From contig CANTFK010000818.1 of the NCBI GenBank assembly GCA_947646735.1, positions 1 to 64,000 of the forward strand: a stretch of 64,000 bases of DNA, given 5' to 3'. A model generated the notes under the pieces. It was not told where the DNA came from. It ran no database searches and saw only the letters and a list, made by a program, of their open reading frames with translations. Made by a program: the position numbers and the translations under genes. The stretch comes from Peronospora farinosa. Its lineage: Eukaryota > Oomycota > Peronosporomycetes > Peronosporales > Peronosporaceae. This document shows positions 15,248-42,794 of the stretch, in pieces. Position 1 is the stretch's first letter; each line of letters begins with the position of its first letter.

Positions 15248-15249
15248 CC

Positions 15250-16479: not shown

Positions 16480-16498
16480 GGGCGGAGCGCCCTACTGA
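16458..16498 (+). promoter_or_regulatory. Gypsy A -1 programmed frameshift signal
   Basis: The slippery heptamer A-AAA-AAC (16458-16464) lies in gag phase, followed by a 9-nt spacer and a hairpin with perfect 9-bp arms at 16473-16481 and 16490-16498. The gag stop TAG (16477-16479) lies in the 5' arm. The -1 frame is open from the heptamer into protease, which lacks its own ATG. The same layout is found in B, B' and C. Confidence 0.8.
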
Positions 16499-20122: not shown

Positions 20123-20261
20123 TAGAGGGTGACTCTAATTTAAGGAAAGGAGAGACTCGCTCGAGCGAGAAACAATCTGGCTCTTGCTCATCACGCGACG
20201 ACGTTATGGTCGACGCGAAAGTAACCGAAGTCGTACCATTCGACTTCGGTGAAGAGGAAAA

Positions 20262-21380
20262 AGTAAGAGCGATGACGCTCTTACTGACAACGATGCTGAA
20301 GATATCAGCATCGTTCGAGGTATCACAAGTGAGAACAGTAATGTTCTCACTGAATTAGTAACCGATATCTCTGCAGTGCATTTACAATGCACTGCAGCCA
20401 AAAGCAACGAGTCAGCTGAGGATTTCCTGCTGACTCGTGAAGCGGTAGTCCGTTTCGTGCAAGATTCCATCGCGGAAGCGGTGGATAAGCAAAAACGAAA
20501 CGCAGACAATAATGGAAGGGCAAATGCTCAGACATTTATTGAAGGTGATTTAGTTTTACTGTCAACAGTAAACCTACCTAAACATGTAGTGACTAACGTG
20601 GGCAGCAATAAATTGTTGCCCAAGTACATCGGCCCGTTTCGTGTATTGCGCCGCCTAGGCAACGCATACACGATCGAGTTGCCACGCAGGATGCGTACGC
20701 ATCCTACGTTTTACGTGGGACGTCTTCGTCCGTACGTTCAGTACGCGGCTTCTTCGAACGACGAAGATAGCCATTACTCTCAAGAATCCCCTTCAGATTC
20801 TTGTTGTCACGAACCAGATTCGATATCTGGTCGTGTAGAGATGAGATCTTCCCATGATATTGGACGATCTCCTGACGAGCTGTCGCCAGCTCGTTACTCA
20901 GAGAATGAAGACGCCGTTCATTCTCCAATAGTGCGACAGCACTGTTTGCCCGAGACCTCTCATGGTCAAACCCAAGCTGTCGCACAATGTCCTCTAAGCG
21001 GCGACGCTTATCCCGTTCGTGATCAACATCACAACGGAGCTCACGAGTTACACGGGCAAACCCGTCTAACTCAGCAGCCAAGTCCGATGAAAGAATAGGA
21101 CAGGGTTTTCCCTCCACCACCGCATCCGCTGGTGGACTCCCATGGTGGGAAGCGCTTCCTCGTGGAACGCTTACTAAAGCACCGCGAGGTGAAGGGACGT
21201 CGGACGAGTTATCTCGTCCGGTGGCGTGGCTATCCGCCTTCGGCGGATAGCTGGGAACCTCGGGCCCAACTGATGGCCGACGTTCCCGGCCTTGTCGAAC
21301 AGTACGACAAGGGGCACCCGATGGTGAAGGACCATCGGAAAACGAGCGCCCAAAGCGTTCGTAAAGGGATTGCAAAGTAG
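20262..21380 (+). pseudogene. Gypsy A integrase C-terminus, linker and chromodomain
   Basis: Frame from about 20262: LLTREAVVRFVQDSIAEAVD, then the GPY/F-like module (LLPKYIGPFRVLRRLGNAYT, HPTFYVGRLRPY), a Ser/Asp-rich linker, an in-frame TAG at 21096-21098, and a chromodomain (GKRFLVERLLKHREVKGRRT, YLVRWRGYPPSADSWEP). Chromodomains on gypsy integrases guide insertion to marked chromatin. The linker and chromodomain lie opposite the 3' part of the antisense gene. Confidence 0.82.
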
Positions 21381-22412
21381 CAATCCCTTCACGCATCTCA
21401 GAAGAGATGCGAGCCCTCCATGAGGGCTCAGTAAGGAGGTACGCCTCCTTAGGCGCTCTTGATGAGGTGCTCAGGCACCCCGGGCATGGGTCGCCCCAAG
21501 AGAGGCATAACAGGCCTGCCTCTCTAGATAACCGGTGCAAACGATAGCATGCACCGGAAGTACTTCGTTTCTCAAACTTATTGCGGCTAGCATAAAGTCT
21601 TTGAAACCAAGCCTCTTTCCCAACGTTTAAAACGTTGGTGATAAACGCGTTCCAAGATTGGAGGAACGCGTCAGCCTCACGCTTCTTGTGTGGGCCATAC
21701 CATCGATGTTCAAGGAACACATCGATGTAATAATCGTTCTCAGTGCGAAAGTTCTTCGCACTGGCGTCAAGGCCATGAAGCTTTGACGCATCAAACAACG
21801 GTATGGGGAACCGTTCGTTGGTCTTTCCAGACCAACGATCAAGCAGATGCTTAGGTAGCATCCATGGCTTGCGATCAGGAGCAAGACGCAATACGTTGCG
21901 GTCTAAAGCCTCCTGCGTGGTGTCAACAGAAGTACCGACACCATGTCAACAGAAGTACCGACACTATGATTATTGATGTCAGTAGAAGCACTGACATCAC
22001 CCTTACGGTCCCCACCCGAGTCACTATCCTTCGACTCGATTGGCGAGTCGTCTGATTCATCAGACGACCCGAACATTTCACGGTACATTGATTCACTCAA
22101 TGTACCACGATCTCTCTTCGTAGCATTAGACGACGAGGTATCACCCCGGGGAGAGCCCGGGAGTGACACAGGTGGCTTTGAGTCGGATGCGTCATCCGAC
22201 TCACCAGAGTAGTCAACGATTAACTCTGGGTCAACATCTTCACGTGGCGAAGCACTACGTGAACCTGCAACAGGCGTTGCAGGCTGATGTTGACTTCCAG
22301 CAGACACATTAGTGTCTGCTGGCTGAGGCTGTAAAGCCTCAGTAGCGGCTGCACACAGGCGTGCAGCCGAGCACTTGGCTGCCTTAGCAGCGACGCGCAT
22401 TGACTTTGTCAT
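20704..22412 (-). CDS. Gypsy A antisense gene: acidic, coiled-coil protein of unknown function
   Basis: A long reading frame opposite gag-pol, starting 93 bp inside the 3' LTR. The first part (22412-21903) encodes a Ser/Asp-rich N-terminus with DPELIVDYSGESDD. The second (21891-20704) encodes a central domain (KPWMLPKHLLDRWSGK, NERFPIPLFDASKLHGLD, DVFLEHRWYGPHKKRE, AFLQSWNAFI) and a C-terminal coiled coil rich in Glu/Arg/Leu with a basic end. The two frames are separated only by a 23-bp tandem duplication (units at 21921 and 21944). Without it they form one frame of about 561 codons. Similar antisense genes occur in B and C. I do not recognise the family; an RNA- or DNA-binding or particle-associated accessory role is only a guess. 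Confidence 0.7.
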
Positions 22413-22493
22413 AGCGTAATCGTTGAATGAAAGAAATTGAACAAGTTCTCCTTTCCCATAGTCACTAAACAGTCACTAATGTGACTGTTGGTT

Positions 22494-22505
22494 GAGGGGG
22501 GGTGA
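22494..22505 (+). promoter_or_regulatory. Gypsy A polypurine tract
   Basis: GAGGGGGGGTGA directly before the right LTR, the expected plus-strand primer for gypsy elements. Confidence 0.7.
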
Positions 22506-22966
22506 TGTAACGGGGCGAGCCCGTTACATAATATTGACACTTATATGAAGTGTCAATAAAAATATTATTATAACTAATAATATTTTGACAATATTACCTT
22601 CTCTTATAATATTGTTCCTAGATCTCCTTGAAGTTGGAGATGCCCTCTCATTGGTTGATATGGGCCATCATATCAACCAACGCGCTGACCAATGACCGAT
22701 GGACGCGCGCAATGAGTGGAGGGCAAGTTGTCAACATACATAGTTGTAGTTTAATATAGTTAACATAGGTTATAACAGATTAGTTTTATTAAGATAGTTA
22801 ACTATATTAAATACAGTTTTCTTTTCCTCTACTTCTAAGCGTTTGTTTAGAAGTAAAGCTTCCTCTGCCTCTTGTGTAAGAGAGGTAATTGAGGCACCTG
22901 CTTTCACTGTAATCAGTGAAAGTAGACTATACTGTAATCAGTATAGTCGGAGGGTGCCCCATTACA
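22506..22966 (+). repeat. Gypsy A right LTR
   Basis: 461 bp, near-identical to 14788-15247. Preceded by a G-rich polypurine tract and followed by the TACCC duplication. Confidence 0.93.
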
Positions 22967-25402: not shown

Positions 25403-26281
25403 AAGGTTCAAGTATCTTCAAGTGTCAAGAAACGGGCGGCGAAAGCCCGAAGTGGCCGTAAATCCGGATGGACTAGGGAGCGACACGGCACAAGGTCAAC
25501 GAGCAGACGTGCTAAGGAAATTGTTGGTGAAGGCCCTGCTGAACGACAGGATGCCGTGAATGCAGTCATCAATCAAGATCCAAAGCATTATGGTGAAGCC
25601 ATCCGAAGTGGTAATCGCCAGAAATGGACCACGGCTATGACTGAAGAGCTGGATGCTCTGAAGTCAAACGGCGTGTGGACGGTTGTACTACCACCAAAAG
25701 GTGCACACGTCTTGCACAACAAGTAGGTCTATAAGACCATATGCAAATGGGAACGTGGAGAGGTACAAGGCTCGCTTGGTGGTCTGTGGGAACGAGCAAG
25801 TGTTTATACCCTCACGTTTCCTGCCGTCATGGATTTGGGAACGGTAAAGTTAATTTTGGTGCTCTCCAGGCGTTGGAACGTGCCTGCCCGACATGGTGAC
25901 GTGCCCAATGCCTACGTTAAGGCTGAAAAGGAGGAGCACCTTGGCATCTACATAAGAGTGCCCAAGGGCATGGTTTTGAGTGACCAAGAGCTTAAGTAGC
26001 ACGGGGGTGCGAACATCTAGTGAACTGTCCCTCCTGTTAAAGAAGTCAATGTACGGGCTCAAGCAGGCTGGAAGGCTCTGGAGTAAATAGCTTAATTTAA
26101 AGCTACGTCAAGATGGTTTCCAGCAATGCACCACGGATATGTGCCTGTAATACTAGTACAAGGGTGAGACGTGCACGGCGGTTGGCGTCTTCGTGGACGA
26201 CCTGTTGGTTACAGGGACTAAAAAAGGGGCCGTGAATGAATTTTTCATGGAAATGAGCTCGCTGTCCATCAAGGACCTAGG
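25403..26281 (+). pseudogene. Copia reverse transcriptase, first part (broken)
   Basis: Fragments QDPKHYGEAIRSGNRQKWTT and LDALKSNGVWTVV (RT start), AYVKAEKEEHLGIYI, KSMYGLKQAGRLW and GVFVDDLLVTGTKK (the VDD catalytic pair). It is cut by gypsy B after SIKDLG at 26281; the remaining part restarts at 33929. Confidence 0.78.
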
Positions 26282-26622
26282 TGTAACGGGGCTAGAACGT
26301 ACCGTCACTAGCTTACACGTGCGCTTGAGGAAGACTTAAGCCCGAGTATTAGGTATTAAGTAAGTTTAACTCTGATTTTTTGTTTGTTTTAATTCGTACT
26401 AATTACGAAGATTTTAGTCGTAATAAATACGACAGTGTTCCCGCCTTTCAGGAACCACACAATTTCAGGTTGATTTATCATTGGTCCATATTGGGGACTT
26501 TAGGCCCAATAATAAACCAATAATAAATTACCACGCTGTGCCCGCTATTCGGGCCCAGCACCTGCCTACATATGTAATTGTTTATTTGTGTTAATACTAT
26601 ATGTGTAATGTAGCCCATTACA
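26282..26622 (-). repeat. Gypsy B 3' LTR
   Basis: 341 bp, TG...CA. In element orientation it starts TGTAATGGGC and folds back on itself through ATTACA. Flanked inside by a polypurine tract. Confidence 0.92.
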
Positions 26623-26635
26623 CCACCCCCTTCTC
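26623..26635 (-). promoter_or_regulatory. Gypsy B polypurine tract
   Basis: The minus strand reads ATGAGAAGGGGGTGG up to the LTR edge. The antisense gene's ATG at 26636 directly adjoins it. Confidence 0.65.
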
Positions 26636-27952
26636 ATGACAGCACTCACCAACCGTGAGTGCTCAACTGTCGAAAACCCTTCGCCCACAAACGAACAAGC
26701 AATGTCCGGAGACCCAACACCCAATCCAGCAGAACGCCCAAGATACATCAGCGGGAATGCATCAACCAGTATCATGGCGCGGCAACTCATACCTTGGTCG
26801 CTGTACGACTTGTCCGGAGCTCACGCTCCGGACTCGCTGGACATGATGCGGGACTACTTCCGCCGATTTCGAAAACTGCGCGGGAAAGGTCTTGATGGAA
26901 TCGAGTATGAAGCTCTACAACGTTCTTGGTGCGCCTTCATCCAACGTTGGAATCGGATGCCAATCTTGTGACTCGACTCCACGCCCAACTCATGACGAAT
27001 GGCGACGACACATCGCTGAGTGTCCACTCAGTGATCGCGAACGAAGTTGGATTGCGAAGTATGAGCGAAGTCTGGGCGAACGAGAAGCGCAGTTATTCGT
27101 GGTGCGCCCTGCTGGCGGCACCACTCGCGACAGCGGAGTCGATCTCCGCGGGATCATCAGCGCAGGGCAGCGACACGTTCGCCTGCCCGTCCAGTTGCGT
27201 GATTCTCGCCTCGCAATCGTGATATGTATTCACCGCGACATTCTCGATCACGGCATCGATCTCGTTCGCGACATCGTTTGCGTTCGCGACATCGTTCTCG
27301 TTTTTGTCATCGTTCCCGTTTCCGACAACGTGAATCTCCTTACCGCTCTCGTTTGTCACGAGAGCGTTCGCGTGCTCGCCCGCCTTGGAATAGTCCGACT
27401 TCGTGGCTTCATACGACAGAACCACATCTGGAACGTCACGAAGGAGCGAGGAACGTGGTTCCCATGTATCCTGCTCGGGAGGGAATCCAAGCCAACGTAC
27501 TCGGTACCTACGCACGGATGGAGCCGCACGCTTCTCATGAGCCGACTGCAGTAATGGTTGTGGAGGGTCCTCTTGACCCACAATGCGGTCTACAATCCAG
27601 CGCACCTGTCCCTCCGCATCAACAAGCGGAGGAGGGCTCTCGCGGTGGTAGAGCTGGCGTCCTGGTTGCTCAGGACGATGTTGATCAGGCCGTGAATATA
27701 GCTGCCGATGCTCGGCTGGAGGCTGAGGCTGCCAGTGAACGTGCTGCCCAGGCGGAGAAGACTTCGAGTGAGACCCGGCAGTCGAACCGTGAACTGCTCG
27801 AGCGGATAAGGATTCTGGAGCGCCAGATGCTTGGTCAGGTTCAGACGGGATCGAGACCCCGCCCCATGTCATCGGCGCGTCGAGCACGACGGGAAGGCCG
27901 TTCGACTTACGAACCCCTGAAGCCGGCGTCGGAGCCAAACCGTGAAGCGTAG
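26636..27952 (+). pseudogene. Gypsy B antisense gene with Arg/Ser-rich and coiled-coil regions
   Basis: A reading frame opposite gag-pol, starting right after the polypurine tract. Part 1 (26636-26971) contains RQLIPWSLYDLSGAHAPDSL and ALQRSWCAFIQRWN; the latter resembles AFLQSWNAFI of gypsy A. The reading shifts one frame near 26965 (CDSTPRPTHDEWRRHIAECP, SDRERSWIAKYERSLGERE), then returns near 27220 to a frame open until 27952: an Arg/Ser/His-rich stretch (SRHRSRSRHRLRSRHRSRF), a linker, and a predicted coiled coil (SNRELLERIRILERQML). The last part lies opposite the pol linker and chromodomain. Function is unknown; two shifts suggest this copy is inactive. Confidence 0.55.
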
Positions 27953-28565
27953 CCGGACGATATTCCTTCAGCCGCCCGACATAGAATGTCGGGTGGAGTC
28001 GCAGTGAAGAGGGGACGTCGAGTGTATAAGCGTCGCCAATTGCCTTCAGAACCTTGAATGGACCGATGAAGCGTGGCGCGAGTTCACTCGCGCTCAGATT
28101 AGTGACCGCAGAATCCCTTAAACCTTCCGTCGATAATAATACACGGTCACCTTTCTCAAACTTGCTCATGTTCTTTCTTCCATGTTTGTCAGCGTTCTCC
28201 TTCTGTAGGTCTACAGCAGTTTGTAGTGCGTCGCGTACAAACCTGGTGATGGCTTGACGTTGGAGTATAAATTCCGACACGGCCATGTCATCAATTGGTC
28301 GCGCCGACTCAATCGGCGCGTAGTTGGCAGTAGGGGAACGCTTACCCGAAGACGGGTCAATTAATGTCTGCGCAGTCCATCGAGCTAATGGGGACGCCAC
28401 GTCTGATGGCGTCAAAATGGCCGTCTTTGCCTTGAATCGTGTTACTGCATTCGCGCTCAAAATACCGTGAGGCTCACTCGATCCTTGTTTATCACCTTTA
28501 TCCCCCCCCCAGAGTGGAGCCACTAGGTGTTGTGGGTCGCCCCACGGCCAGGACAGTAGGAACAC
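27093..28565 (-). pseudogene. Gypsy B integrase C-terminus, linker and chromodomain
   Basis: 490-codon frame: AVSEFILQRQAITRFVRDAL, APRFIGPFKVLKAIGDAYTL, HPTFYVGRLKEY, a Pro/His/Gln-rich linker, then the chromodomain (EGQVRWIVDRIVG, YRVRWLGFPPEQDTWEP) with an insertion of about 20 residues between its first strands. The C-terminal tail has Asn/Asp/Val repeats (NDVANANDVANEID) that lie opposite the Arg/Ser repeats of the antisense gene. It is separated from the upstream pol frame by a G-run length change near 28502-28510. Confidence 0.8.
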
Positions 28566-30624
28566 GAGGTTGACGAGCCGAATTCACAAAAAATGGCGTC
28601 AACCCTGTTGACGCGTGTACGGCGTTGTTAAGTGCGAACTCAACGAGTGGTAAAAATGCACTCCAACTTGTAAATGACGTAGCATAACTCCGAAGAACAT
28701 CTTCGAGGACTCGGTTCACGTGCTCGGTCTGTCCATCCGTTTCCGGATGGGCTGCCGTCGACATCAGCAGTTTTGTCCCGAGGAGCTCGAAAAGTGATGT
28801 CCAAAATGCGGACGTAAATCGCGGATCATGGTCCGAAACAATGTTTTCTGGAAGGCCATGATGACGGAACACCGCGTCGATGAAGTGCGCCGCGGTCTCT
28901 GCCGCGGTGACCTTAGCGTGAACAGGCACGAGATGTGTCATCTTGCTGAATCTGTCAACAAAGACCAAGATGCCCGTTCGAGCTTGGCTATCGGGCGCAA
29001 GCCCGAAGATAAAGTCCATCGAAACTGATCTCCAGGCCTCTGATGCAATTGGCAACGATCGCAAGGGAGCCTGTGACGATGGAGATGGCTTCACACGCTG
29101 GCATATTTCGCACGTTCGGATCCAGTTGCGTACCCACTTATACATGTGGGGCCAGAAGAAGTCTCGAGACACAGCCGCGAAAGTCTTTTCGCGGCCTAAA
29201 TGGCCGCCAGCAGGAGCATCGTGATACTCGTGAATGATTCTTGCACGCAAATCCATGTCGTTGGCAATCACCGTGCGAGGAGCATCGAATTGGTCGATGC
29301 TATACAGAAGCAAATCGCCATCTAAACTGTATCGATGAATATGGTCGCGCTTGGTACGGGATAATGCTCCCAGTGCAGCATCGCTGGGAGCACGCAGATA
29401 CTCGATAATGTCTGCATAATCTGAGTCACCCTTGTACGCTGCAACGATCTCATCAAATAAACACGGCTCGGGTGTAACCCGAGTTAAGTTCAGCGATACA
29501 CACATTGCACATCGGTCATCATCGTCCTCGTCATCAGTAGCCTGGCGACTCAGAGCAGTCCGAGGATCGTAGTCGGGACGTCGTGACAAGGCGTCAGCGA
29601 GAATATTGGTCTTGCCTGGCTTGTAATGCACGACGAAGTTGTACTCAGAGAAGAATGAGAGCCATCGTGCCATCCGTTGGGACAGGTGTGGGCTCTTCAT
29701 CGCTGTGCGCAGCGATGCATGATCGGTGTACAAAGCAAACGTACTTTCACCAAGGAGATGCACGCGAAACTTGATGAGTGCATAGCGCATCGCTAATAAC
29801 TCCTTGTCGTGAACCGGATAGTTCTTCTCAGCTGGCTTCATCTGTCGCGACTGATAACTCACGACTCGTTCACGGCCCTCATCATCAAATTGCATGAGGG
29901 CACAACCGATTGCAAAATCACTGGCGTCGCAAACCACGTGGAACGGCTTGGAATCGTCTGGTAGGACCAGGACTGGCGCTGACGCTAGGCTCTTCTTTAC
30001 TGCTTCGAAGGCTGCTTGGTGCTCGGGACGCCACAACCACGTGGCGTCTTTCTTCAAGAGTGACGACAAAGGCTGGATAGAACCAGCATAATCCTTCGTA
30101 TACTTGTGCAAATAATTAGCCAAGCCGAGCCACTGGCGCAACTCCGTAGGGTTCTTGGATGTGGGCCAAGAACAGATGGACGACACCTTCTCTGGATCAG
30201 CTCGAACTCCCGATTTACTCACATAGCAACCTAACACCGGAATCTCCGGTGCACAAAAGACACACTTCTTGAGATTCGCGTACAACTTGTTGTCCCGCAT
30301 AACTTGAAACACTTGCTTCAGGTGTTGAAGGTGAACTTGGACATCGTTGAGGTTGCCCTCGGCGCGACTATGGACGAAGATATCGTCAAAATAACTTGGG
30401 GCAAAGTTCCGAAGAGGTCTCAACACTTGAGACACCATGCGATTGAAAGTGGCCGGAGCGTTCTTCAACCCTTGTGGCATTACCAGCCACTCCCATAACA
30501 TGCCACTCGGGGTGCTCACCGCGGTGAGTGGGATATCGCTCGGGCGCATCAAAATCTGGTAAAAGCCATCGGTCAAGTCGATGGCACTGAAGATGACACT
30601 ACCTGACATGGAATTCAGCACCAT
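28498..30624 (-). pseudogene. Gypsy B RT (part), RNase H and integrase core
   Basis: 708-codon frame: IDLTDGFYQILM, PQGLKNAPATFNRM and YFDDIFVHS (RT), VVCDASDFAIGCALMQ and YTDHASLRT (RNase H), HDAPAGGHLGREKTF...CEICQRVK (zinc), SMDFIFGLAPDSQ and ETDGQTEHVNRVLED (integrase core). SDHDPRF replaces SDRDPRF of B'. It ends at a G-run (STLGGG then stop). Upstream it is out of frame with the RT N-terminus because of a one-base loss near 30646. Confidence 0.88.
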
Positions 30625-31364
30625 GTCCTTCCTGGGAATTGGCGTTGCGCAGGAATAGTGGCATCATTCAACTTATTGAACGCATGCACTATCCGCCAGC
30701 CTCCCGTAGCCTTCTTCACGCAGAAGGTTGGACTCGAATGTGGTGAGATACTCTCCCGCACGTGACCCGCTTTGCGGCGGCCTTCAAAGAATGCGTCAAT
30801 AGCTTCGACTTGATCTCGAGGCAACGGCCACTGCCGTGTCACACAATACTTCGACCCTGGCACGAGATCAATCTCGTGCCGAACACCGCGATCCGCAGGA
30901 AGTTCAGCCGGGATCTTGTCCGGGAACACGTCTGCATACTCACGAGCAATGTCGTAGACGGGGTTACCAGACTCTCGCAGGGCCTCCCATGACTGTGATG
31001 CAAACCTTTCTTCACGCGCAGACTTCGGCTCAGCGCTTTGAGGACGCGCCATATGCTCCTCGTTTGCCACGGTAACCACCTCGTTGGTGATTAGACGCAC
31101 TTGTTCCACAGTGCCTCCCTTAAGGTCACGTAGGAAATGCTTCCAGGAGAGCCCTGGAAGACTTGTAATGGAAGACGCATTACGAGGAGGACTCTCGACC
31201 TCGATATATTGGCGCCTTTGTGGACTCCCTTCCACGTACACGATAGCGTGGACACATTCCAACGCTAAATTCTCGGTGCTGTTGTCCCCATCGTGCTTCG
31301 AGTCACTACTCGAAGCTGGCGAACCGCAGTCAGGTGATAAACCATCACCCCCCCCTCTAGGCAC
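30615..31364 (-). pseudogene. Gypsy B pol linker and RT N-terminus
   Basis: Contains [20 protein letters not shown] and [19 protein letters not shown], then runs out of frame after DATIPAQ (a base is missing relative to gypsy A, whose sequence there encodes AQTPIPRKD). The same lesion is in B'. Upstream it is separated from protease by an 8-base G-run (9 would keep frame). Confidence 0.85.
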
Positions 31365-32538
31365 TGGATGTCGTCATCCAAGATGCCGGAAAAACTGGAC
31401 GGGAGTACCCCAAACTCGACCGTCGACACTTGATGCGGGAGCTCCTGCTCGGCCGCCGTAAACCCGCGTGGGAGCCCCTGCTCAACCACAGTATGCCCAT
31501 GTGGGAACCTCGGTTCGACCACAGTGGGTGATGATGGGAACCCCGGTTCGACCATCATGCTCTCGCGTGGGGACTCCTGTCCGTCCACGTTGTACTCGTG
31601 TGGGAGCCCCTGCTCGACCACAATATGCCCATGTGGGAACCTCGGTTCGATCACAGTGGGTGATGATGGGAACCCCGGTTCGACCATCATGCTCTCGCGT
31701 GAGGACTCCTGTCCGTCTACGTCACACTCGCTGGCGAGCTCTTGCTCGTCGCCACAATGCCCTTGTGGGAGCCCCTGCTCGACCACAATAGGTGCAGATG
31801 GGAACCCCGGTTCAACCACTGCATTCACGTGCGGGAACCCCTGTTCGACCGCGTCGTCCTCGTCGTCCTCTTCGCTCTGTAGCGAGGAGTCACTGTCACT
31901 TGTGTCCCGAAGAACAGCACAAGCAGTGCAGAGAGGGCCATCGCTTGCTCTGTGCACCGCCAACGTCGTGGAATCGCGATCCACGACTGTGACGTTTGGC
32001 CAGTCACTTGGAGATACCAAGAGATGGGTAAACACTTCACTGACATCGAACTTGCGTCGACGTCTCACTGATCTGGCTAACCAGTCGATCTGGGGCTTAT
32101 AACGTGCCAACCATGGCATGCCCAGTATGCAATCGAATGCATAATTCATCGCGATCACCAAGAAATCATCATTACTGCGAAAGCCATCAAACGTATACGG
32201 CAACGACACTTCGCGCCGCGATACGCGGTGTGGTTTCCCGTCAGCCAACTTGACGACGACTTGGCCAGGTCCCTCACGGACCTGAATGCTGGGAGGCAGC
32301 ATCGACAAACAAGATTCACGAAAGAAATTGTTTGTTGCTCCTGAGTCCAGGAGTGCTCGCAGAGGTCGCCGGACGCCGGCGACATGTAAACTGACAATAA
32401 TCAGACGTGAATCACCACTCGTAGTGGTGGCATTTAACCGTGCGCGTAGCGCAGGAGGACTGGAAGGTTGGGCTGCCACCGGGGGACCCGGACCTCCGTT
32501 CTAACCAGTAGGGCGCCCTGCACCTACTGGTCCCGACC
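31265..32538 (-). pseudogene. Gypsy B protease and Pro/Gly repeat linker
   Basis: Entered by -1 frameshift from gag; it has no ATG at the junction. The protease site is [12 protein letters not shown] with the later [17 protein letters not shown] long linker of [20 protein letters not shown] and VEQGLP-type repeats follows (31480-31860). The frame ends beyond the G-run at 31349-31356. Confidence 0.82.
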
Positions 32539-32545
32539 GTTTTTT
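32505..32545 (-). promoter_or_regulatory. Gypsy B -1 frameshift signal
   Basis: On the minus strand: A-AAA-AAC (32545-32539) in gag phase, then a hairpin with 8-bp arms CCAGTAGG (32530-32523) and CCTACTGG (32512-32505). The gag stop TAG is within the first arm. It matches gypsy A and B'. Confidence 0.8.
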
Positions 32546-33556
32546 GGACGTGCGGCCGGTACAGCACCCTCATGATGGGCGTCCACTACTTGCACCGATA
32601 ATGGGGCTGGCGCACGGCACTCTGCCGCGCGATGTCCTGGCTTGAGACAACGAAAGCAAACCATTGGACGCCCGGTGCGAGCGTCACCTTTATGATGAAA
32701 GACACGTCGCCGGTCACCCGACGACTCAATCACGTCGATCTCCATAGGTTCTGGACCAGAAGGCCGGGGAACGCTGACGACCGAGGGTTTGGCATATGCC
32801 TTTGTGACCCTAAAGTCTTCACGGAGTGCGATGGCGAATGCCTCCTCCAATGTGGCAGGCTCGGCGCGCTCCAGCGATAAGCGGGTCTGCCCCTCACGCA
32901 TACCATCCACAAAGACATTCACCTGTGTGTACATGTCCATGGGGTGCGTGATAATACACGACGCCAGATGCCTAGCCATCTGTACGTAGTCGCGCATCGC
33001 CATTTTACCCTGTCGCATCGACAGGAATCTTGATCGCACCAGTTTCTCCTCTTGTGGTGGCTCGAAGGCAAGACGGAGATCGTCCTGGATGGTATCCAAG
33101 GTGGGAAATGCGTGCTCGTCCACAACGAGTTTACCAAGGGCCCACTCCTTGGCCTTCCCGGTGAGGCGGGAAAGAAGAAAGTTGACCTTCGCCTGTGGAG
33201 CCTCAAGAAGTCTCGAGGCGATGGCGATATCAACTTCTCGGAACCACCGGTTCAGCGATAACCGGTCCTTACCTTCTCCAGAGTAGGAGGAGGTTTATCT
33301 TCACGGCCTCATTACGTGAAGGGCGCGAGGGAGTTAAGCCTCGCCGGTTGGATTCGGCGAGCTCGCGTGCCATAAACTCATGTATGGCGAGACGTTGCGC
33401 GTCAGGGGTCGCTGATCTCATCAGCGACGCGACGAATGCCTCTCCCGATATCGCCGCGAGGCGATTAAGGGCATCCCACTCAACACCAGTAAGATGGGGG
33501 AAGGTCGCGTGCTCCAGAAATAAATCTGGAGCGTCAAAGTACGACGATTCGCTCAT
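32524..33556 (-). pseudogene. Gypsy B Gag (frameshifted)
   Basis: Starts [19 protein letters not shown] at 33556 and shares the core [20 protein letters not shown] with B'. Compared with B', bases are missing near 33288, so the first frame ends at 33269. The rest (33123-32524 and upstream) continues in the other frame to a complete zinc knuckle [14 protein letters not shown]. This copy cannot make full Gag without the missing bases. Confidence 0.85.
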
Positions 33557-33587
33557 GGCATAGGAAGGACTACAAAGTGCTACCGGG

Positions 33588-33928
33588 TGTAACGGGGCTA
33601 GAACGTACCGTCACTAGCTTACACGCGCGCTCGAGGAAGACTCAAGCCCAAGTATTAGGTATTAAGTAAGTTTAACTCTGATTTTTTGTTTGTTTTAATT
33701 CGTACTAATTACGAAGATTTTAGTCGTAATAAATACGAGAGTGTTCCCGCCTTTCGGGAACCACACAATTTCAGGTTGATTTATCATTGGTCCATATTGG
33801 GGACTTTAGGCCCAATAATAAACCAATAATAAATTACCACGCTGTGCCCGCTATTCGGGCCCAGCACCTGCCTACATATGTAATTGTTTATTTGTGTTAA
33901 TGCTATATGTGTAATGTAGCCCATTACA
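33588..33928 (-). repeat. Gypsy B 5' LTR
   Basis: 341 bp, partner of 26282-26622. The primer site follows on the minus strand (GGTAGCACTT at 33584-33575). Confidence 0.92.
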
Positions 33929-34846
33929 CTAGGCGTCGTCAACAGGTTTCTTGGTTTACGAATCGAATTGAACGACGTGATAGGATACGCTCTGGACCAA
34001 GAAGTCATGATCGACCTCCTGTTGAAGGAGTTCGGACTGAATTCAGCTAATGGGGTGAGGACCCCAATCGGGGACGAGTGCAATGCAGAAGACGAGTACA
34101 CTGTGGAATGCCTTCCTGCGAAGAGTGCAAAGGGCTAGCCAAGTGTGAAGTTGTTCCAGTCGCTGGTTGGGAGCCTGTTGTGGATAGCAAGGCGCACGCG
34201 TCATGATATCTTCTTTGCTGTTCACAAGGAAACTAGGCAGACACACAAGCCTACGACAAAGGACTGGAAGATCGCAAAACGTATTGCAAGAAACTTGAAG
34301 ATGTCGAAGGGCTTGAAGTTGCACCTCAATGGTGTCGGAACTACATCCAATGATGTTCGGGTCGAATGCTGGAGCGATGCCGATTTCGCTGCCGACAAGT
34401 CTGATCGCAAGTCATTCTCTGGTTGTGTATTCACTATGGACGGAGCCGTCGTGATGTGGACGTGCAAAAAGCAGTCCGGGGTGTCGTTGAGCACGATGGA
34501 AGCGGAGTTCATCTCTGCGTCACAAGCGGGACGTGAATTGCTGGGTCTACGGGAACTACTCGGCGAATTGAAGCTGAAGATAAGCGAGCCCATGCCGATG
34601 TGGGTTGACAACCAAGCGGCAATCAAGCAACTCGAGTCCGAGAAGTGTACCTCAAGCGCGAAGCATGTGGACATCCGTTTCGAGTTCATACTCCACCTTG
34701 TGCGTGAAGGTGTCGTGCAACCAAGACTTATGAAGTCTGAGGACATGATGGCGGACATGTTGACCAAGGCGTTACCAACACCAAGAATATAAGACCTGCG
34801 AACGATGTTCAAGTTGAAGAATATCCAGGATGAAGTCGAGGAGGAG
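33929..34846 (+). pseudogene. Copia RT end and RNase H
   Basis: Continues the copia RT cut at 26281: NRFLGLRIELNDVIGYALDQ, then a stop at 34136, then an open frame (34145-34792) with KLFQSLVGSLLWIARRTRHD, VECWSDADFAADKSDRKS, VSLSTMEAEFISASQAGREL (RNase H acidic residues), KHVDIRFEFILH and DMLTKALPTPR. This is the normal C-terminus of copia pol. A purine tract GAGGAGGAG (34838-34846) precedes the right LTR. Confidence 0.88.
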
Positions 34847-34992
34847 TGTTAAAAACGATCGTTTTTTGACAGGTTGCAAGGTGTTGAAGGCAAGGGCTAT
34901 ACCCTGTGCCCGGTAAGTTGCGACCGCACCCGAATTGGCTAATGTTGTGACATCTTAACATATGTGGCGAAGCGGGATAGACGAAGACTACA
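34847..34992 (+). repeat. Right copia LTR, first part
   Basis: 146 bp matching 14219 onward with 2 differences. It is cut by gypsy C after CTACA and resumes at 42795. Confidence 0.9.
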
Positions 34993-35598
34993 GACTAGAC
35001 GGGCACTTCTATGAAGTTGCCTCGTACTACGAGCACACACCTTATGCACAAGCGAGGAAGCGGTTATACCGTCTTACCTTCGCGTGCGAGGGTGGTTGGG
35101 AGGTTGGTCGACTGCTTAAGCAGTCGTACCACCAGTTGCCTCTCGCTAAAGCAAGAGTGCAACGAACTTCTTAACACTTAGAACACCGACGTCACGCAGA
35201 AGTCTTTCAACTTCTCGTGCGTGGTGTTTCTGTTTAAGCAAATTCAAGACTGAGATATATTTAATTAATTATAACTAAATATATGTTTAACTACTGATTG
35301 GCTATATATATATATATATATAGATCGGATACGCGACTCTTTAGAAGCGTATCCTGTTGCATGATCTTAAATCTAGATTTAAGATCGCAACTGACGTCCT
35401 TCTGAGACGTCGTGATGCCTAGCTTCAACTAGCGTCATCCCTTCTCATGTGAATCCATCAATGGATATCACATTCACGAGGGTGGATCACATTTGTGTGT
35501 CGCACCCAAGTGACTGGTCAAAAGTAATCATGGATACTTTTAGACCAAACATTAAGTATATTACTTAATGTTTACGTGTAACTAGGTACCCTGTTACA
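34993..35598 (-). repeat. Gypsy C 3' LTR
   Basis: About 606 bp with a (TA)n microsatellite near 35306 and hairpins such as GGATACGC/GCGTATCC and the palindrome CTTAAATCTAGATTTAAG. A solo copy of the same LTR is at 49614. Confidence 0.9.
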
Positions 35599-35703
35599 CC
35601 ATTCCCGTTTTAGAACGATTTTTACATTTTATAAAACATCGCCTAAGAGACAGAGATACTGGCGAGCCGTTTATAAACGCGCCGCTTTAGTCTTTCAGTA
35701 CTC

Positions 35704-37148
35704 ATGCCACCGAAACGTGGTAAGGCTGATGGGTCGCCTGCAAAGGCACCCATGCAGTCCAGCACTAAGCGCACGCGCCGCGATTTATCGCAGCCGTCGC
35801 AAAGTGCGTCAGGCACTGGGGTGGATCTTCCATCTTACGATAATGTGGATGAAGATCCATCTCTCATTGTTGACTACAATGAGACCACACCACTGCCATC
35901 ACCCTAAAGTGGCGATGAGCATAGTGCATTGATGGGACATATGTCCCCATCATTTGAGGCACCCGTCCTTGAGGAAGCTTCTATGCTTCCTGCAAGTGAA
36001 GGTAAGGCCTCGTCGCCTGCGTCTACGAGCGCAGCGACTAAGACTGAGCGCGCTACTTCGAAAGGAGTAGTCGCGACTCAATCAGATGTGACTCCTCATG
36101 CTGATGTCTTGACAATCCATAATGGATAGTCAGACTCAGGTGAGTGTTGCTTAAAGCTCCACCAAGTACACCTTCGGCCTCACTAGCCCGCCGTCGCGAG
36201 GGCGGCTACGTGAGTGGTGGCTTGCAACCAATGCCACCTCCATCTGAGTGGATGCACCTAGATGGGTCTAGCGCATCGCTTTTGCAGCGTGCCACTATAG
36301 ACGCTCATAAATTCTATAGCGTCTTTCCTTTGTGGAAAAAGCAGGGCAAAGCACTTGGTCGTGCTTTCCCAATTCCAGTCGTGCTGCGTTCTAACGAAAC
36401 ATCCGACGACTATGAAGCTGAACTTCGGCGCCGTGTTACCTTGCATGAAGATGCAACGAAACAGCGGTCGCAGCGAATCAGCTTCGCCATGAAGCGTGCG
36501 CATGAAATTATGGGCGGTAAGCGACCCCCAATTAATTCTCGCCACGCTTCTTCTGCTAGTCCTTCCGGACCTAGCAGAAAGAAGACAGCTGGTGCTGCTT
36601 CACATAAGCAGCCACCAGCCCAGGCACGTCAACGCGCAAAGCGTCCACAGGCTCCCACGAGTCAAAGCTCGTTGGGTAACCCTTCCACTGGACAAGGATT
36701 TGGAGCTTTCGCTTTACAAACCGGTGGGCCAACAGCCTTCCAACAAGGAAGCGCGTGTTCCCTTCCGTGTCCATCAACACAGGTGGCGCCCGATAGGAGC
36801 GGCGATTAAGCCCACCTAATCGCGGCTGCCTACCCTGCTGCTGTTCAGTCGCAGGCTGAGTCTGCTGCGCTGAAGAGACAGGTGACAGATCTCGAGAGCC
36901 AAGTCTCGCGACTGACTTTGGATCTGCGCGATGTGAGGACGAGGGACCGTCAGAGGTATGACCGCCTGAAGATCCGTTTGGACATCTTAGAGCGACTGGT
37001 GATGAGAGACCCGCGTCAAGCGCGGAGTCCTCCTCGATCGCCGAGTCCTCTATCGCCTCGTTCGTATACGAGGAGCCTCTCGGCTTCCTCGTCGCCCGAT
37101 CGGTCGCGACGCTCGACTCACAGTCGGCGTCACCATCGGTCTCGTTAG
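35704..37148 (+). pseudogene. Gypsy C antisense gene with coiled-coil and Arg/Ser-rich tail
   Basis: Plus-strand frame starting about 105 bp inside the 3' LTR: MPPKRGKADGSPAKAP, then DPSLIVDYNETTP (compare DPELIVDYSGE in gypsy A). An in-frame TAA at 35905 is followed by the same frame to 36129. After a shift the reading continues at 36144 with ATIDAHKFYSVFPLWKKQGK, LGRAFPIPVVLRSNETSDDY and RRRVTLHEDATKQRSQR. After one in-frame TAA at 36807 come a coiled coil (LESQVSRLTLDLRDVR) and an SR-type tail (RSPPRSPSPLSPRSYTRS), ending at 37148. It overlaps the chromodomain frame on the other strand. Unknown function, damaged copy. Confidence 0.55.
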
Positions 37149-37263
37149 ACCGATGCGGATATGTGATCTCTTCTGGATCAACATACCGTTTCAGACGACC
37201 CACGTAAAATACGGGGTACGTCTTCATATACGGTGGGAGTGAGCCTATAATTGAGTTCTCCAC
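36571..37263 (-). pseudogene. Gypsy C linker and chromodomain
   Basis: Starts in the integrase end motif YPVFYVGRLKRYVDPEE, then a Ser/Asp-rich linker, then the chromodomain (GNTRFLVGRLLAHRFVKRKL, ILVQWKGYPTSFDSWEP). The integrase GPY/F module that should precede it is missing, so a deletion joins the core to this part. Confidence 0.8.
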
Positions 37264-38416
37264 CCTGTTTTATTGTTTTTGCGACCATGCTGTTATATCC
37301 CCCACCAGTGTCACTAGGGCAACCTTGGCCCTTTTTGGCATTCGCACCGAGCGAAGGTAGAGGCCCTCCCCCACTAAGACTCGGGCTGCGTACAAACGAT
37401 ACTGGCGTTCGAGGATGACGCATTCCGTTAATGTAAAACGGTGTTTCACCCGTACTGGCGTGAACACTATTATTTATAGCGAACTCCACAAGTGGCAATT
37501 GCTTGCTCCATCTTTTAGAAGCCGCTACTGTACGCAACACATCCGCCACGACTCGATTGGACCGTTCTGTTTGGCCATCAGTTTGGGGATGATTAGCAGT
37601 TGACATGTAAAGATTGCTTCCCAGCAACTCAAACACATGTCGCCAAAAACCCGACGTAAAACGCGGATCCCGGTCCGATACTATGTACTCGGGCATCCCG
37701 TGTAGTCGATACACGTGATCCAGAAAGAAGAGGGCAGCCTCTTTTCCTGAGATCTTGGTGCTACATGGTGCCAAATGCACCATCTTGCTCAGTCTGTCTA
37801 CAAAGACGACGAGCCCCGTCCTGCCTTTATGGTCAGGCGGTAAGCCAAAAATGAAGTCCAAACTGACCGACTTCCAACATTCAGTTGGAATCGGCAGTGG
37901 CTTCAGTGGCGCACTGTTTGAAGGTGCAGGCTTTATGCGCTGACACTCTTCACAAAAGCGAATGTAGTTGGCCACCCACCGATACAGGTGGGGCCACCAA
38001 AATTCCTCTGACACTCGTAAGAATGTCTTTTCACGGCCCAGATGCCCACTAGATGGCGCATCATGGCACTCGTGAAGTATCATCAGCTTGAGATCTGTGT
38101 CATGAGGGACATAGATTCTCAAGGGATCACAGGGTGACAGTTGATGCCATAACAGGCCATCACTGTAACTAAAGCGATTTAGTTTCGCTTTGAGGTGCGA
38201 CGGAAGGGTAACCTTTCGTCCACCAAAATGATCCAACAGCAGGCGACAATGTTCTTCCTGCCTGTAACACTCCTTGATATCGGAGGCCATTGAGCTCGTC
38301 ACATGGTAGGCCTTCATGGCTGCCAATGTTGACGACTCAACTTGTGCTTTCGCACGTGACACACTATCTTGGTGGCTTGTCTCGAAGTCTGGTCTGCGCG
38401 ATAACGCGTCAGCCAA
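37178..38416 (-). pseudogene. Gypsy C RNase H end and integrase core
   Basis: MADALSRRPDFETSHQ, zinc region HDAPSSGHLGREKTFL...CEECQRIK, catalytic contexts SLDFIFGLPPDHKGRTG, VSDRDPRFTSGFW and QTDGQTERSNRVVAD. After TPFYINGMRHPRTPVSF the frame becomes unrelated, with the GPY/F module absent. Confidence 0.85.
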
Positions 38417-38472
38417 GACATTCGACTTACCCGGCTTATATTCAACTTTGAAATTAAATTCAGAGAAGAATG

Positions 38473-39128
38473 TTAGCCATCTTTTGCCATTCTCGGCGAG
38501 AGGTGCGGTGAATTTATAGCGGTCCGCAGTGATGCGTGATCCGTATAAACCACAAAAAGTTCGGTGCCCAAGAGGTGCACACGAAACTTTACAAGGGCAT
38601 ACTTAATTGAAAGTATCTCCTTGTCATGCACAGGGTAATTCAGCTCGGCAGCTTTTAAAAGCCGAGACTGATACGAAATGACACGGTCAACGCCGTTGTT
38701 ATCCTTCTGCATGAGCGCGCTGCCGATTGCAAAATTTCTTGCATCGCAGACGACGCTAAAGGGCTATCCGCGTCTGGCAATGCGAAGACCGGTGCCTCTA
38801 CAAGAGATTGCTTCACTGAAGTGAACGCATCTACTTGCTCCTTTGACCAAGTCCATTCTGTATCCTTTTTAAAAGATCAGACAATGGCTTAGTCTGATCC
38901 GCATAATTCTTGCTGTACTTATGCAAGTAATTAGCGAGCCCAAGGAATTGGCGCAGATCCTTCACATGTACGTGGGACTGGCCATTCCTTTACAGCCTTT
39001 ACTTTTTCTGGGTCTGCTCGTACACCATGTGCACCTACGATGCAGCCCAGCACAGGTATCTCGGGGACCCCTATGACGCACTTTTGCAAGTTCACGTATA
39101 ATTGGGCGTCACCCAGAGTCTGCAACAC
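38473..39128 (-). pseudogene. Gypsy C RT end and RNase H pieces
   Basis: Two frames: 39128-38931 (LYVNLQKCVIGVPEIPVLGC) and 38712-38473 (NYPVHDKEILSIKYALVKFR, YTDHASLRTAINSPHLSPRM). Small deletions around 38765 and 38870 and a shift near 38485 break continuity. Confidence 0.8.
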
Positions 39129-39163
39129 AGCGTCTAAATGACGCTTGTGCGACTCTATCGCGC

Positions 39164-39562
39164 TCAGCCGTCCTCCACCCTACTATGCACAAATACATCG
39201 TCAAAGTAATGGGGCGCGTAGGCACAGTGCTGACGCATCACGTGAGCCACCACTCGGTTGAATGTTGCCGGATCATTTTTCAACCCTTGTGGCATCACAA
39301 GCCACTCCCACATCATACCGCTTGAGTGATTACTGGCGTTTTGACTGATCTGAAGGATGGCTACTATCAAGTTCTTATCAGTATTTCTCATGAGAACCTG
39401 ATCGTAGCCATCCTTCAGATCCAACGCGGAAAAGATAGTTGACTTTCCCATGGAATTCAACAAGACATCTTTCCGCGGGACCGGCGTTGGAGCCGGAATG
39501 GTGGCCGTGTTCAGCTTATCATAAGCATGAACTACGCACCATCCATTTGTTGCTTTACGCAC
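39164..39562 (-). pseudogene. Gypsy C RT core with fold-back insertion
   Basis: MRKATNGWCVVHAYDKLNTA, TIFSALDLKDGYDQVLM, then unrelated residues from an inverted copy (39347-39421) in place of the usual AVSTPSGM region, then MMWEWLVMPQGLKNDPATFN and YFDDVFVHS. See the finding on the inverted duplication. Confidence 0.8.
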
Positions 39563-41057
39563 ACAGAAGGTCGGGCTGCAATGAGGCGACTTGCTCTCAC
39601 GTACATGTCCCGCCTTAGTTTGCTTGTCGAAGACTCATCGATGTAATCGACTTGTTCCTTCGGCAACAGCCACTGCCTGGTCACACAATATTTGGTGTTA
39701 GGATACAGGTCAGTCTCGCGCCTGATGCCCCTATCGGCCGGTAGGCGGATCAGCACTTCTGCTGGAAACACATCACGGTGTTTCCACAGAACATCATAGA
39801 ACGGGCTGTCCTTCAAGGCATCCCAGCCTTGAGCAGCGAACCGTTTCTTTTTGTCGGTCTCCAAGACGCTCTCATCCATTGTGTACGACGAGCAACAGTC
39901 CACCACGTTCTCTTCTGGAACTGGTGCGACTATCTCGTGGATGTTTCCTTCCTTTAGTTCGGACAGGAACAGATCCCACGTCATCTCCGAGAGATTTACT
40001 ATCTCCTCGGCAGATGCCAAGACAAGTTGGAGCACCTCAACTGAGGATGCCTCCGGCATTTTGTCTTCGACGGCCTCGAACAACTCGTTCGTAGGTCCGT
40101 CCTCTTGGATCGAGACTGATCCAAGGTTCACTCGTTTCGACGTGCCCTTGATCGTCTTAATACGTCTGGTGCTCGTTCTTCGAGTCACCACGACCTTTGA
40201 CCTGGAGGAAGGTGTCGTTGCTATCTCAACTAACGCACTCCTTCCAACCGCACCAGGCTCTTGGCTCTGTGCCGGTTTTTGTGGCGCTTGACTTGCTGTC
40301 AGCCTACCATCAACTGCCACAGGCTCTCGGCTCTGTGCAGGACTATTGGACGCATGACTACCTGTCATCGCCCCATTCACTACACCAGTCTTTTCGACCT
40401 GGGTAGGAATATGTGTCACCTGGCTTTCCGCCAGTGCACTCACAACTACACCACTACTTTCGAGCTGGGTAGTTCCTGGTGTCGATTGACCTGCCGCCAT
40501 CGCACCCTCGACTGTGTTGGACATAGCATCAATCACATAAGCCTCTCGCAAGAGCACATCCTTTCCGGTGTCTTGCGTAGAGCTAGCGACTGTGCGTGTA
40601 CGCCAGTCTATCCATGGTTGGTGTTTAGCCAACCAAGGCATGCCTAGGATGAGGTCGTACGGACTCTCCATACCTAGCACTGTGAACTTCTCTTTACAAG
40701 AGAAGTCACTGAAACTGAAGGCGAGTTTGACTTGAACTCCCTCCGGTTTGACGAGCGCGCCGTTCGCTAAACGAACGATCGCCTCTTCTCGCTTGCCATC
40801 CTGGCAAAGCGACTCATAACTCGCCGGTCTCTTTTTTAGAGCCGCGAGTTTCACAAAGTTTTGTGATGCACCCGAATCCACGAGAAGGGTCATCACTTGG
40901 TCATAGCCTCGTACTCGAGCGCTATAGACCAAAAGGGTTGAGGTCCGACCTTTCGGAACCTCAGGGACTATGCTACCCATTTGTTCGATCACTCTGAACT
41001 TAGGGGTAGCTTCAGAGTCCGCGACAGTAGGGCATCCCGCCCCTACTGCGCTCCCGC
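39532..41057 (-). pseudogene. Gypsy C protease and linker
   Basis: -1 frame relative to gag. The protease site is LLVDSGASQNFVK, with [18 protein letters not shown]. The linker holds loose repeats (SQAPQKPAQSQEP, SHASNSPAQSREP). The RT N-terminus [20 protein letters not shown] follows. The frame is lost near 39560. Confidence 0.8.
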
Positions 41058-41064
41058 ATTTCCC
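41025..41064 (-). promoter_or_regulatory. Gypsy C -1 frameshift signal
   Basis: On the minus strand: G-GGA-AAT (41064-41058) in gag phase, 9-nt spacer, hairpin arms CAGTAGGG (41048-41041) and CCCTACTG (41032-41025). The gag stop TAG lies in the first arm. Different heptamer, same architecture as A and B. Confidence 0.72.
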
Positions 41065-42125
41065 GACCCATCTTGGGCAGGTGCTGAACCCGTTCGTCGT
41101 GTAAGCTTATACTTCGAACCACCCTTCGGGTAGGGAGACCTTTTGCTGGCTGCCTTAGCACCAGCAGCTACTTTGGCATAGCAGCGAGCCATCATATGGC
41201 CTCGCTTGTCGCACTTGTAGCAGATGACATCTGCATTGCCTAACTCCATAGGAGTGGCATCAGACCTCTCGGACGACGGCCTGTAATAGGCTGTCGCCGA
41301 GGCGCTGTTGTAGGATTGCTCCTTAACTAAGGCAATGTCAATTGCCTCTTCTATCGTCGCTGGCACCTTTCTGAAAAGGGCCTGACGCGATGGGCCATGC
41401 CTAAGTTCATTCATGAACGTGGCTACCTTGATACGCTCTAGTATCGGTTCCCCATTGATGGACGCCGACAGCGAACGCATCTCCTGCACAAACTCTTGCA
41501 GAGAGCGTTTCGCTTGTCGTGCTCAAAAGAAGCGCGCCATAAGCAACACTTCGTTGTTAGGCGGCTGATACATGGCGCGAATCTTTGACTTAAAGATCGC
41601 CCATGATGGAAATGCATCAGCATTAGCCATCAGCGCAGAGTATGCCCACTCTGACGCTTTGCCACGCAAGTTGGATATGGCATACGACACCATTCCGGTG
41701 TCGTCTTCGATGAGCTGCGCCACTCCACATTGCTCCACTGCTAATAGCCAGTTAACAATCGTGTGAGGGCTAGTTCCATCGAACTTCGGAGGGTCCATCC
41801 GAATGAGCCTCGGTTGAGCAGGCCGGGCAGAGAGCGTCTCAACAGTCCTGTTGAGCGCCTCATTACGTGCCTGCTCAAGCCTAAGCTCATCCTGAGTCTT
41901 AGTGATGGACTCAGCGGTGGCTTGGCTGTTTACCTCGGACGCGTTTCTACGCTGTCCGAGCACAAACGCCTCAAATTGTTCCAACTGAGCAACATGTTGC
42001 TCAGGAGGACGGTGCAAGAGGTTGACCAGGGCTTGTTCACCAAGTCCCTGCGCCATATGCTCTGCCAACTCCCTATGATGTTGGGAGAGGTGAGAGAATT
42101 CACTCCAGTCCATATTAAGGACCAT
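41043..42125 (-). pseudogene. Gypsy C Gag with one in-frame stop
   Basis: Probable start MVLNMDWSEFSHLSQHHREL at 42125. The core includes HTIVNWLLAVEQCGVAQLIE and SEWAYSALMANADAFPSW, then a TGA (41523-41525) inside MARFF*ARQAKRSLQEF. The same frame continues to a zinc knuckle CYKCDKRGHMMARC and ends NAGAQ at TAG in the frameshift hairpin. One nonsense change is the only visible break. Confidence 0.82.
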
Positions 42126-42186
42126 CTTAACCGCACGCACGCTCAGAGAGACGGGTCGTGGGGGAAGAACTACTAGTGCTACCAAG

Positions 42187-42789
42187 TGTAGACGGGCACT
42201 TCTATGAAGTTGCCTCGTACTACGAGCACACACCTTATGCACAAGCGAGGAAGCGGTTATACCGTCTTACCTTCGCGTGCGAGGGTGGTTGGGAGGTTGG
42301 TCGACTGCTTAAGCAGTCGTACCACCAGTTGCCTCTCGCTTAAGCAAGAGTGCAACGAACTTCTTAACACTTAGAACTCCGACGTCACGCAGAAGTCTTT
42401 CAACTTCTCGTGCGTGGTGTTTCTGTTTAAGCAAATTCAAGACTGAGATATATTTAATTAATTATAACTAAATATATGTTTAACTACTGATTGGCTATAT
42501 ATATATATATATAGATCGGATACGCGACTCTTTAGAAGCGTATCCTGTCGCATGATCTTAAATCTAGATTTAAGATCGCAACTGACGTCCTTCTGAGACG
42601 TCGTGATGCCTAGCTTCAACTAGCGTCATCCCTTCTCATGTGAATCCATCAATGGATATCACATTCACGAGGGTGGATCACATTTGTGTGTCGCACCCAA
42701 GTGACTGGTCAAAAGTAATCATGGATACTTTTAGACCAAACATTAAGTATATTACTTAATGTTTACGTGTAACTAGGTACCCTGTTACA
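42187..42789 (-). repeat. Gypsy C 5' LTR
   Basis: 603 bp. In element orientation it begins TGTAACAGGG and ends GTCTACA. The primer site TGGTAGCACT lies on the minus strand at 42184-42175. Confidence 0.9.
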
Positions 42790-42794
42790 CTACA

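Follow-up and report, generated by a model that had tools for sequence, protein, structure and literature searches.

A candidate antisense accessory gene opposite the 3′ end of pol in chromodomain gypsy elements of Peronospora farinosa

We analysed a 64,000-nucleotide stretch of the Peronospora farinosa genome (assembly GCA_947646735.1, contig CANTFK010000818.1, positions 1 to 64,000; this whole stretch is called the window) and found three gypsy elements with long terminal repeats (LTRs), A on the plus strand and B and C on the minus strand, in each of which an antisense coding stretch lies opposite the 3′ part of pol. The features of these elements and their antisense genes are as follows.

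14788–22966, plus strand: element A, LTR pair 99.3% identical
14788–15247, plus strand: 5′ LTR of A (TGTAAC...ATTACA), 99.3% identical to the 3′ LTR
22506–22966, plus strand: 3′ LTR of A, inner edge just upstream of the antisense gene
20704–22459, minus strand: antisense gene of A, broken in the window, with a 588-codon intact form in copy L025
21316–21903, minus strand: conserved helical core of the A product, mapped from residues 190–385, mostly outside pol
20704–21378, no strand: overlap of the A antisense gene with pol (integrase–chromodomain linker and chromodomain), as in L025
About 26280–33929, minus strand: element B, LTR pair 98.0% identical over 344 nt
26280–26623, minus strand: 3′ LTR of B as matched, 98.0% identical to 33586–33929 over 344 nt
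26636–27952, plus strand: antisense gene of B, broken in the window, with a 487-codon intact form in copy L056
26768–27088, plus strand: remnant of the B product's conserved core, about 47 of its 156 residues, conserved cysteines among them, having been lost to a deletion
27093–27952, no strand: overlap of the B antisense gene with pol (integrase–chromodomain linker and chromodomain)
34996–42790, minus strand: element C, LTR pair 99.2% identical
34996–35599, minus strand: 3′ LTR of C, 99.2% identical to 42189–42790
35704–37148, plus strand: antisense gene of C, broken in the window, with a 481-codon intact form in copy L070
36150–36542, plus strand: conserved core of the C product, mapped from residues 150–280, outside pol
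36571–37148, no strand: overlap of the C antisense gene with pol (linker and chromodomain)

The sequence TACCC is found on both sides of element A. In the pol frames which were scanned, A and B matched reverse transcriptase (RT), RNase H and SH3-like domains, B and C matched integrase domains, and the Chromo domain PF00385 was present in the window copies of B and C and in the A copy L025. The A integrase frame is 60% identical to that of B, and the longest RT, RNase H or integrase matches between the three families are 48–60% identical. The initial annotation had described long antisense frames; in the window copies none of these is a single open frame. That of A has a short frame-shifting deletion which leaves two open frames (22472–21903 and 21945–20704), and the A pol frame itself stops early, at 21098; that of B has a 140-nt deletion in the core, common to a subfamily, together with a further frame shift and internal stops; and that of C, with a small frame-shifting gap and stops, is read across two frames.

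Intact forms were found elsewhere in the genome. DNA searches of the 46.85-Mb assembly (274 contigs) gave 227 (A), 294 (B) and 540 (C) first-look places, of which 40 candidates per family were scored, so that copy numbers are lower bounds. We fetched the 20 top-listed copies of each family, excluding the window's own, and six extra B relatives which were picked because their frames already appeared stop-free. One uninterrupted antisense frame of 466–657 codons (with length minima of at least 1650 nt for A, 1350 nt for B and 1400 nt for C) was present in 12/20 A, 12/20 C and 8/26 B copies; for B these comprise 3 of the 9 long copies not chosen for openness and 5 of the 6 chosen ones. The pol frame was also open across the whole fetched stretch in 7 of the 12 antisense-open A copies and 8 of the 12 C copies.

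The antisense genes of the three families share their position and phase, as had been proposed. The distance inward from the edge of the 3′ LTR to the in-frame ATG, measured in intact copies, is 48 nt in A (L025), 13 nt in B (L056) and either 20 or 107 nt in C (L066). At its other end the frame closes under the integrase–chromodomain linker, never more than 45 nt away from the FYVGRL motif with which the integrase SH3-like domain finishes: in A it passes this motif by 5 nt, whereas in B and C it stops 17 and 44 nt before reaching it. In all three families codon position 1 of the antisense gene is opposite codon position 1 of pol, over an overlap of 190–284 codons.

The openness of these frames is explained neither by chance nor by the constraint on pol. 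Under the rest of pol the same phase has stops at approximately 4–6% of codons (A: 51/1028, 15/273 and 7/149; B: 28/721 and 9/209; C: 21/474). Within the overlap we counted 0/130, 1/284 and 1/190 stops in the window copies of A, B and C, and 0/223, 0/284 and 0/190 in natural copies. When the overlap was recoded with random synonymous codons drawn by pol codon usage, keeping the same sense peptide, only 9 (A), 2 (B) and 62 (C) of 5000 trials gave zero antisense stops. Outside pol, one natural copy of each family had no stops over 1043 nt (A), 604 nt (B) and 869 nt (C), while dinucleotide shuffles of these parts contained on average 14.6, 6.6 and 10.9 stops, with 0, 1 and 0 of 2000 shuffles free of them.

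The products are conserved across species. At E ≤ 1e−3 the 588-residue A product of L025 matched 189 proteins; among the best 120 of these 189, which were listed, identity was 80–93% in Peronospora effusa and 38–52% in Peronospora matthiolae, with one P. matthiolae cluster comprising 1335 members. The C product had 15 matches at 45–94% identity, including proteins of P. effusa and P. farinosa, and the closest P. effusa proteins are up to 93–94% identical to the A and C products. The 18 matches of the B product included P. matthiolae, P. destructor and six Phytophthora species (P. capsici, P. ramorum, P. rubi, P. fragariae, P. nicotianae and P. megakarya). Mean identity in the core was 56% for A (13 relatives), 55% for B (16 relatives) and 60% for C (5 relatives), after the exclusion of two near copies for A and three rows for C, in comparison to 37%, 20% and 47% at the N-terminus of A, B and C and to 39–44% in the parts of A opposite pol. 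As the cores lie wholly (B, C) or mostly (A) outside pol, their conservation is not caused by pol. Together with the occurrence of relatives in both Peronospora and Phytophthora, this lends good support to the suggestion that oomycete gypsy elements have an accessory gene here. In a FastTree phylogeny of the B core, five products, three of them from Peronospora, clustered (support 0.97) beside one P. capsici product (0.81), a grouping which fits old residence in these genomes and does not in itself prove vertical descent.

Selection was also assessed from variation among the copies within the genome. We compared variants shared by at least three copies with singletons found in one copy, excluding two-copy variants; shared variants should mostly predate the insertion of the copies and singletons postdate it, and shared variants are not mutually independent. 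Outside pol, the pooled ratio of nonsynonymous to synonymous variants was 277:110 among singletons but 39:28 among shared variants (one-sided Fisher p = 0.022). Every variant in the overlap altered at least one of the two proteins: of the 73 shared variants, 33 left the antisense protein unchanged, 24 left the sense protein unchanged and 16 changed both, the corresponding numbers for the 362 singletons being 111, 99 and 152. Those silent in neither frame were therefore depleted among the shared variants (16/73 vs 152/362, p = 0.0014). Among sense-changing variants the ratio of antisense-silent to antisense-changing was 33:16 when shared and 111:152 in singletons (odds 2.8, p = 0.0016), and sense silence was likewise enriched among the antisense-changing shared variants (odds 2.3, p = 0.016). 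Because the older variants avoid altering both proteins, both strands of the overlap look constrained, the antisense no less than the sense.

The predicted product has a disordered N-terminus, a small helical core which contains cysteines in A and B, basic stretches and a C-terminal coiled coil. We modelled one A relative and one B relative with AlphaFold (mean pLDDT 61.5 and 60.7, pTM 0.37 and 0.35, core blocks 65–93). Coiled coils, which the initial annotation had attributed to all three products, were predicted in both models. Compared by eye, both models run from four main helices through the cysteines to two further main helices, after which a disordered stretch leads into a long coiled coil, so that prediction of the central domain, as had been suggested, yielded a similar helix order in A and B. 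In A, basic residues cluster in the coiled coil and at the C-terminus; in B such clusters run through the middle of the product, and in C they are weak. The Arg/Ser-rich stretch previously assigned to B and C is clear in B, but no 12-residue stretch of this genome's C product contains six Arg or Lys residues; one stretch of the C relative P0134 reached this number. The N-terminus of the A family is repeat-prone, because tandem VGTSVDT-type repeats are found in the A product (about 1400–1475 of L025) and a larger internal duplication is found in the P. effusa relative P0004.

It is less clear that the three products descend from one gene. In whole-profile comparisons, the test which had been proposed for this, none of the pairs was significantly similar (probabilities of 14% for A–B, 27% for A–C and 3% for B–C), and the best alignments fall in the part overlapping pol. 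Comparing core with core, A–B gave 1.6%, reached by 2 of 60 shuffles, in an alignment centred on the W-x-A-F-I words, while the A–C and B–C scores were equalled by 22/60 and 59/60 shuffles. In Smith–Waterman comparisons of thinned sets (8 A, 11 B and 7 C sequences), A–B reached z = 2.8 on full shuffles (6/300 as high) and 1.4 on block shuffles (25/300), A–C fell below its shuffles and B–C gave z = 1.6 and 1.2.

The short words from which kinship had been argued fared unequally. FLQSWNAFI (A) and LQRSWCAFI (B) are present and W-x-A-F-I-like words recur in 16/16 A and 16/19 B rows of the alignments. DPELIVDYS (A) and DPSLIVDYN (C) are also present and DPxLxVDY is kept in 7/9 C rows, but in just 5/16 A rows, of which 14/16 have the looser L-x-V-x-Y. 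The pair FPIPLF (A) and FPIPVV (C) was not sustained, as most A relatives are without it. A W-x-A-F-I word is followed by C-x6/7-C-x2-C after 52–56 residues, counted from the first residue of the matched word, in 15/16 A and 14/19 B rows; the A core contains both, with the C-x6-C-x2-C spacing. Near the N-terminus A and C have EDVDPELVVDYSG and VDEDPSLIVDYNE in common over 13 columns, with a score reached by 0/60 shuffles, which could be a common short binding motif.

The most probable of the four rival explanations considered is that A, B and C each gained their antisense gene independently, or captured it from the host, and that these genes converged on the same position and phase. We regard this as a live possibility, somewhat short of an even chance. 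It fits product profiles which are not significantly similar while pol matches at 48–60% identity, and coiled coils and basic stretches converge easily. However, the start, end and phase are alike in A, B and C, the A and B products share two motifs at near-equal spacing, and the motif common to A and C also speaks against separate origins. As the A and B motifs are collinear and the predicted helix order is similar, these two products are probably distant homologues, although this is not proven. What had been seen as one gene inherited by all three families is thus borne out in part, by the motifs and helices of A and B, and not by profile similarity. The C product may be a third version or a separate gain; its kinship to A would rest on the one 13-column motif, and to B there is nothing.

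The 140-nt deletion of the window's B copy (junction about 26955–26960) lies outside pol and is shared by 11 of the 20 first-fetched B copies (L045–L055), which together with the window copy are 97–99% identical. None of these 11 copies has an intact antisense gene. As this core-less subfamily still multiplied, the antisense gene is dispensable in cis. Either supply in trans from intact copies or a self-limiting role of the product would explain its spread, and the subfamily amounts to a natural loss experiment.

In summary, many copies have the frame open to an extent that chance does not explain, and its product is conserved across species with a core wholly or mostly outside pol. The explanation we favour, with moderate confidence, is that chromodomain gypsy elements of the Peronosporaceae carry a true protein-coding antisense accessory gene, the product of which is probably a nuclear, nucleic-acid-binding regulator acting in trans. 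The gene begins close to the inner edge of the 3′ LTR, crosses the non-coding 3′ region of the element and continues into the chromodomain and linker of pol. Its mRNA would start on the antisense strand inside the 3′ LTR; the product would enter the nucleus, oligomerise via its coiled coil and bind nucleic acid of the element, regulating it in trans. The regulated step would most likely be transcription or silencing of the element, as proposed for the Retand antisense proteins of plants and described for the retroviral protein HBZ. RNA binding or complex formation, which the initial annotation had read from the RS-like and coiled-coil parts, may be among the activities of the product. If it is the LTR that contains the antisense promoter, its nearly identical counterpart at the 5′ end should likewise send transcripts outward into the flanking host DNA.

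Several observations weigh against this explanation. Mean ratios of nonsynonymous to synonymous polymorphism (pN/pS) of open copies were 0.63–0.69 outside pol and 0.55–0.67 in the overlap, rising outside pol to 0.72–0.85 in the most diverged fifth of pairs, and plain pN/pS would on its own be weak evidence. Among nine A copies the ratio of nonsynonymous to synonymous variants outside pol was 0.89 of expectation for all variants, and 0.43 for informative variants. In B and C the stretch of coiled coil which faces pol is conserved to much the same degree as the core (53% vs 55% in B and 60% vs 60% in C). The relatives in other species are presumed, by inference, to lie antisense in gypsy elements. 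A scan for a few promoter words near the gene starts gave nothing consistent, and neither Pfam, nor the PDB sequences, nor any significant fold match points to a function for the product. Finally, the B subfamily multiplied although its deletion destroys the core of the product.

A protein which acts in the cytoplasm on copy number or packaging, as a nucleic-acid chaperone, a Gag partner or a trans inhibitor of particles, would suit some of the same data. Basic stretches and a coiled coil are as well suited to RNA binding or assembly as to DNA binding, and loss from one spreading B subfamily would suit a self-limiting factor. Against it there is nothing direct, only the nuclear location of the plant analogue GENE23 of Grande, described in the accessible part of PMC7264820, and we consider it unlikely. 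Less likely again is that the antisense transcript works as an RNA, forming a duplex with the sense RNA and so feeding or blocking silencing, with the protein secondary. RNA roles of antisense LTR transcripts, in plants and in retroviruses, are considered in the available text of PMC7264820 and PMC10186651, and the B subfamily spreads with a dead protein frame, but conserved amino-acid patterns over approximately 500 codons and the constraint on the antisense frame indicate a protein. It is very improbable that the frames stay open merely as a side effect of base composition and of the codons used in pol, with no protein made: part of each frame does lie opposite pol and synonymous sense codons can avoid antisense stops, but recoding seldom achieves this, the same phase is closed elsewhere under pol, and 604–1043 nt of each frame are open outside pol and encode products conserved between species.

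The nuclear regulator remains the probable product by analogy, with plant antisense open reading frames (ORFs; PMC7264820, PMC11963269) and with HBZ (PMC10186651), each as far as the accessible text of these sources goes. A more far-reaching scenario is put forward tentatively, as it is rather less probable than our favoured explanation: the doubly coding 3′ end would have arisen before the split of Peronospora and Phytophthora, when an oligomeric nucleic-acid-binding regulator was overprinted on the antisense strand of the chromodomain and linker, in an origin separate from but like those of HBZ and gene23; it would act in trans and be exploited by the subfamilies which lost it.

Elsewhere in the window, an array of 33-nt repeats lies at 31404–31865, within the element B frame that covers the protease region. 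Another B-like element, facing the opposite way, occupies 58800–63955 and continues past the end of the window; its antisense frame (G000:C218:64875–65810) matches the P. capsici relative and has two stops. The frame at 59894–61063 also contains a 33-nt repeat array, by eye.

In the open-licence literature we found no account of antisense genes carried by oomycete gypsy elements, and the word "antisense" does not occur in the available portions of PMC5348765, on oomycete elements, or of PMC11540230, on P. effusa, the latter describing a recent gypsy expansion in that species. The accessible part of PMC5348765 describes Chronos, an oomycete gypsy element which, like those described here, has a chromodomain, and which has an added plant-type RNase H; in A and B just RT-linked RNase H models matched, in scanned frames which cover only part of each pol. 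Products of the kind described here stand as uncharacterised, unnamed or hypothetical proteins in sequence collections, and our reading would explain such orphan annotations in the genomes of downy mildews and Phytophthora.

Protein family matches were sought with hmmscan for five products (E ≤ 1) and for 31 A and 17 B relatives (E ≤ 10), the C relatives covered being P0003 and P0134; for the A relatives the best 25 of 45 weakly matching families were listed, the remainder being single-member matches above E = 0.12. The closest parallels we know from the literature are the antisense ORFs of plant gypsy elements (aORF-3R), which according to the accessible text of PMC7264820 and PMC11963269 include gene23 of Grande, that of RIRE2 and those of the Retand lineage with its TRP28 domain (PF04195); their products are suspected of DNA binding, GENE23 is reported to be nuclear and their roles are given there as unknown. 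As in these plants, the antisense gene described here belongs to a gypsy element, lies between pol and the 3′ LTR and is kept in many copies. It differs in its oomycete hosts, in overlapping pol by 190–284 codons and in that PF04195 was not among the matches listed for the five products and the A and B relatives; Retand is moreover a non-chromovirus (PMC11963269, in the part available), whereas the present elements carry PF00385. We therefore speak of analogy with the Retand and Grande ORFs and do not claim homology. The resemblance to the retroviral antisense proteins HBZ and APH-2 lies in the position of the gene at the 3′ LTR side and in the predicted C-terminal coiled coil. HBZ of HTLV-1, which regulates the provirus, carries a bZIP segment at its C-terminus (PMC10186651, accessible text), whereas no bZIP family was among the matches listed for our products and their A and B relatives. 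Antisense accessory genes are thus already known from plant gypsy elements and from retroviruses and, if our reading is true, the present genes would extend the list to the oomycetes, to a new family of proteins and to a gene that overlaps the pol chromodomain at length, which would make a system for testing two coding strands against each other.

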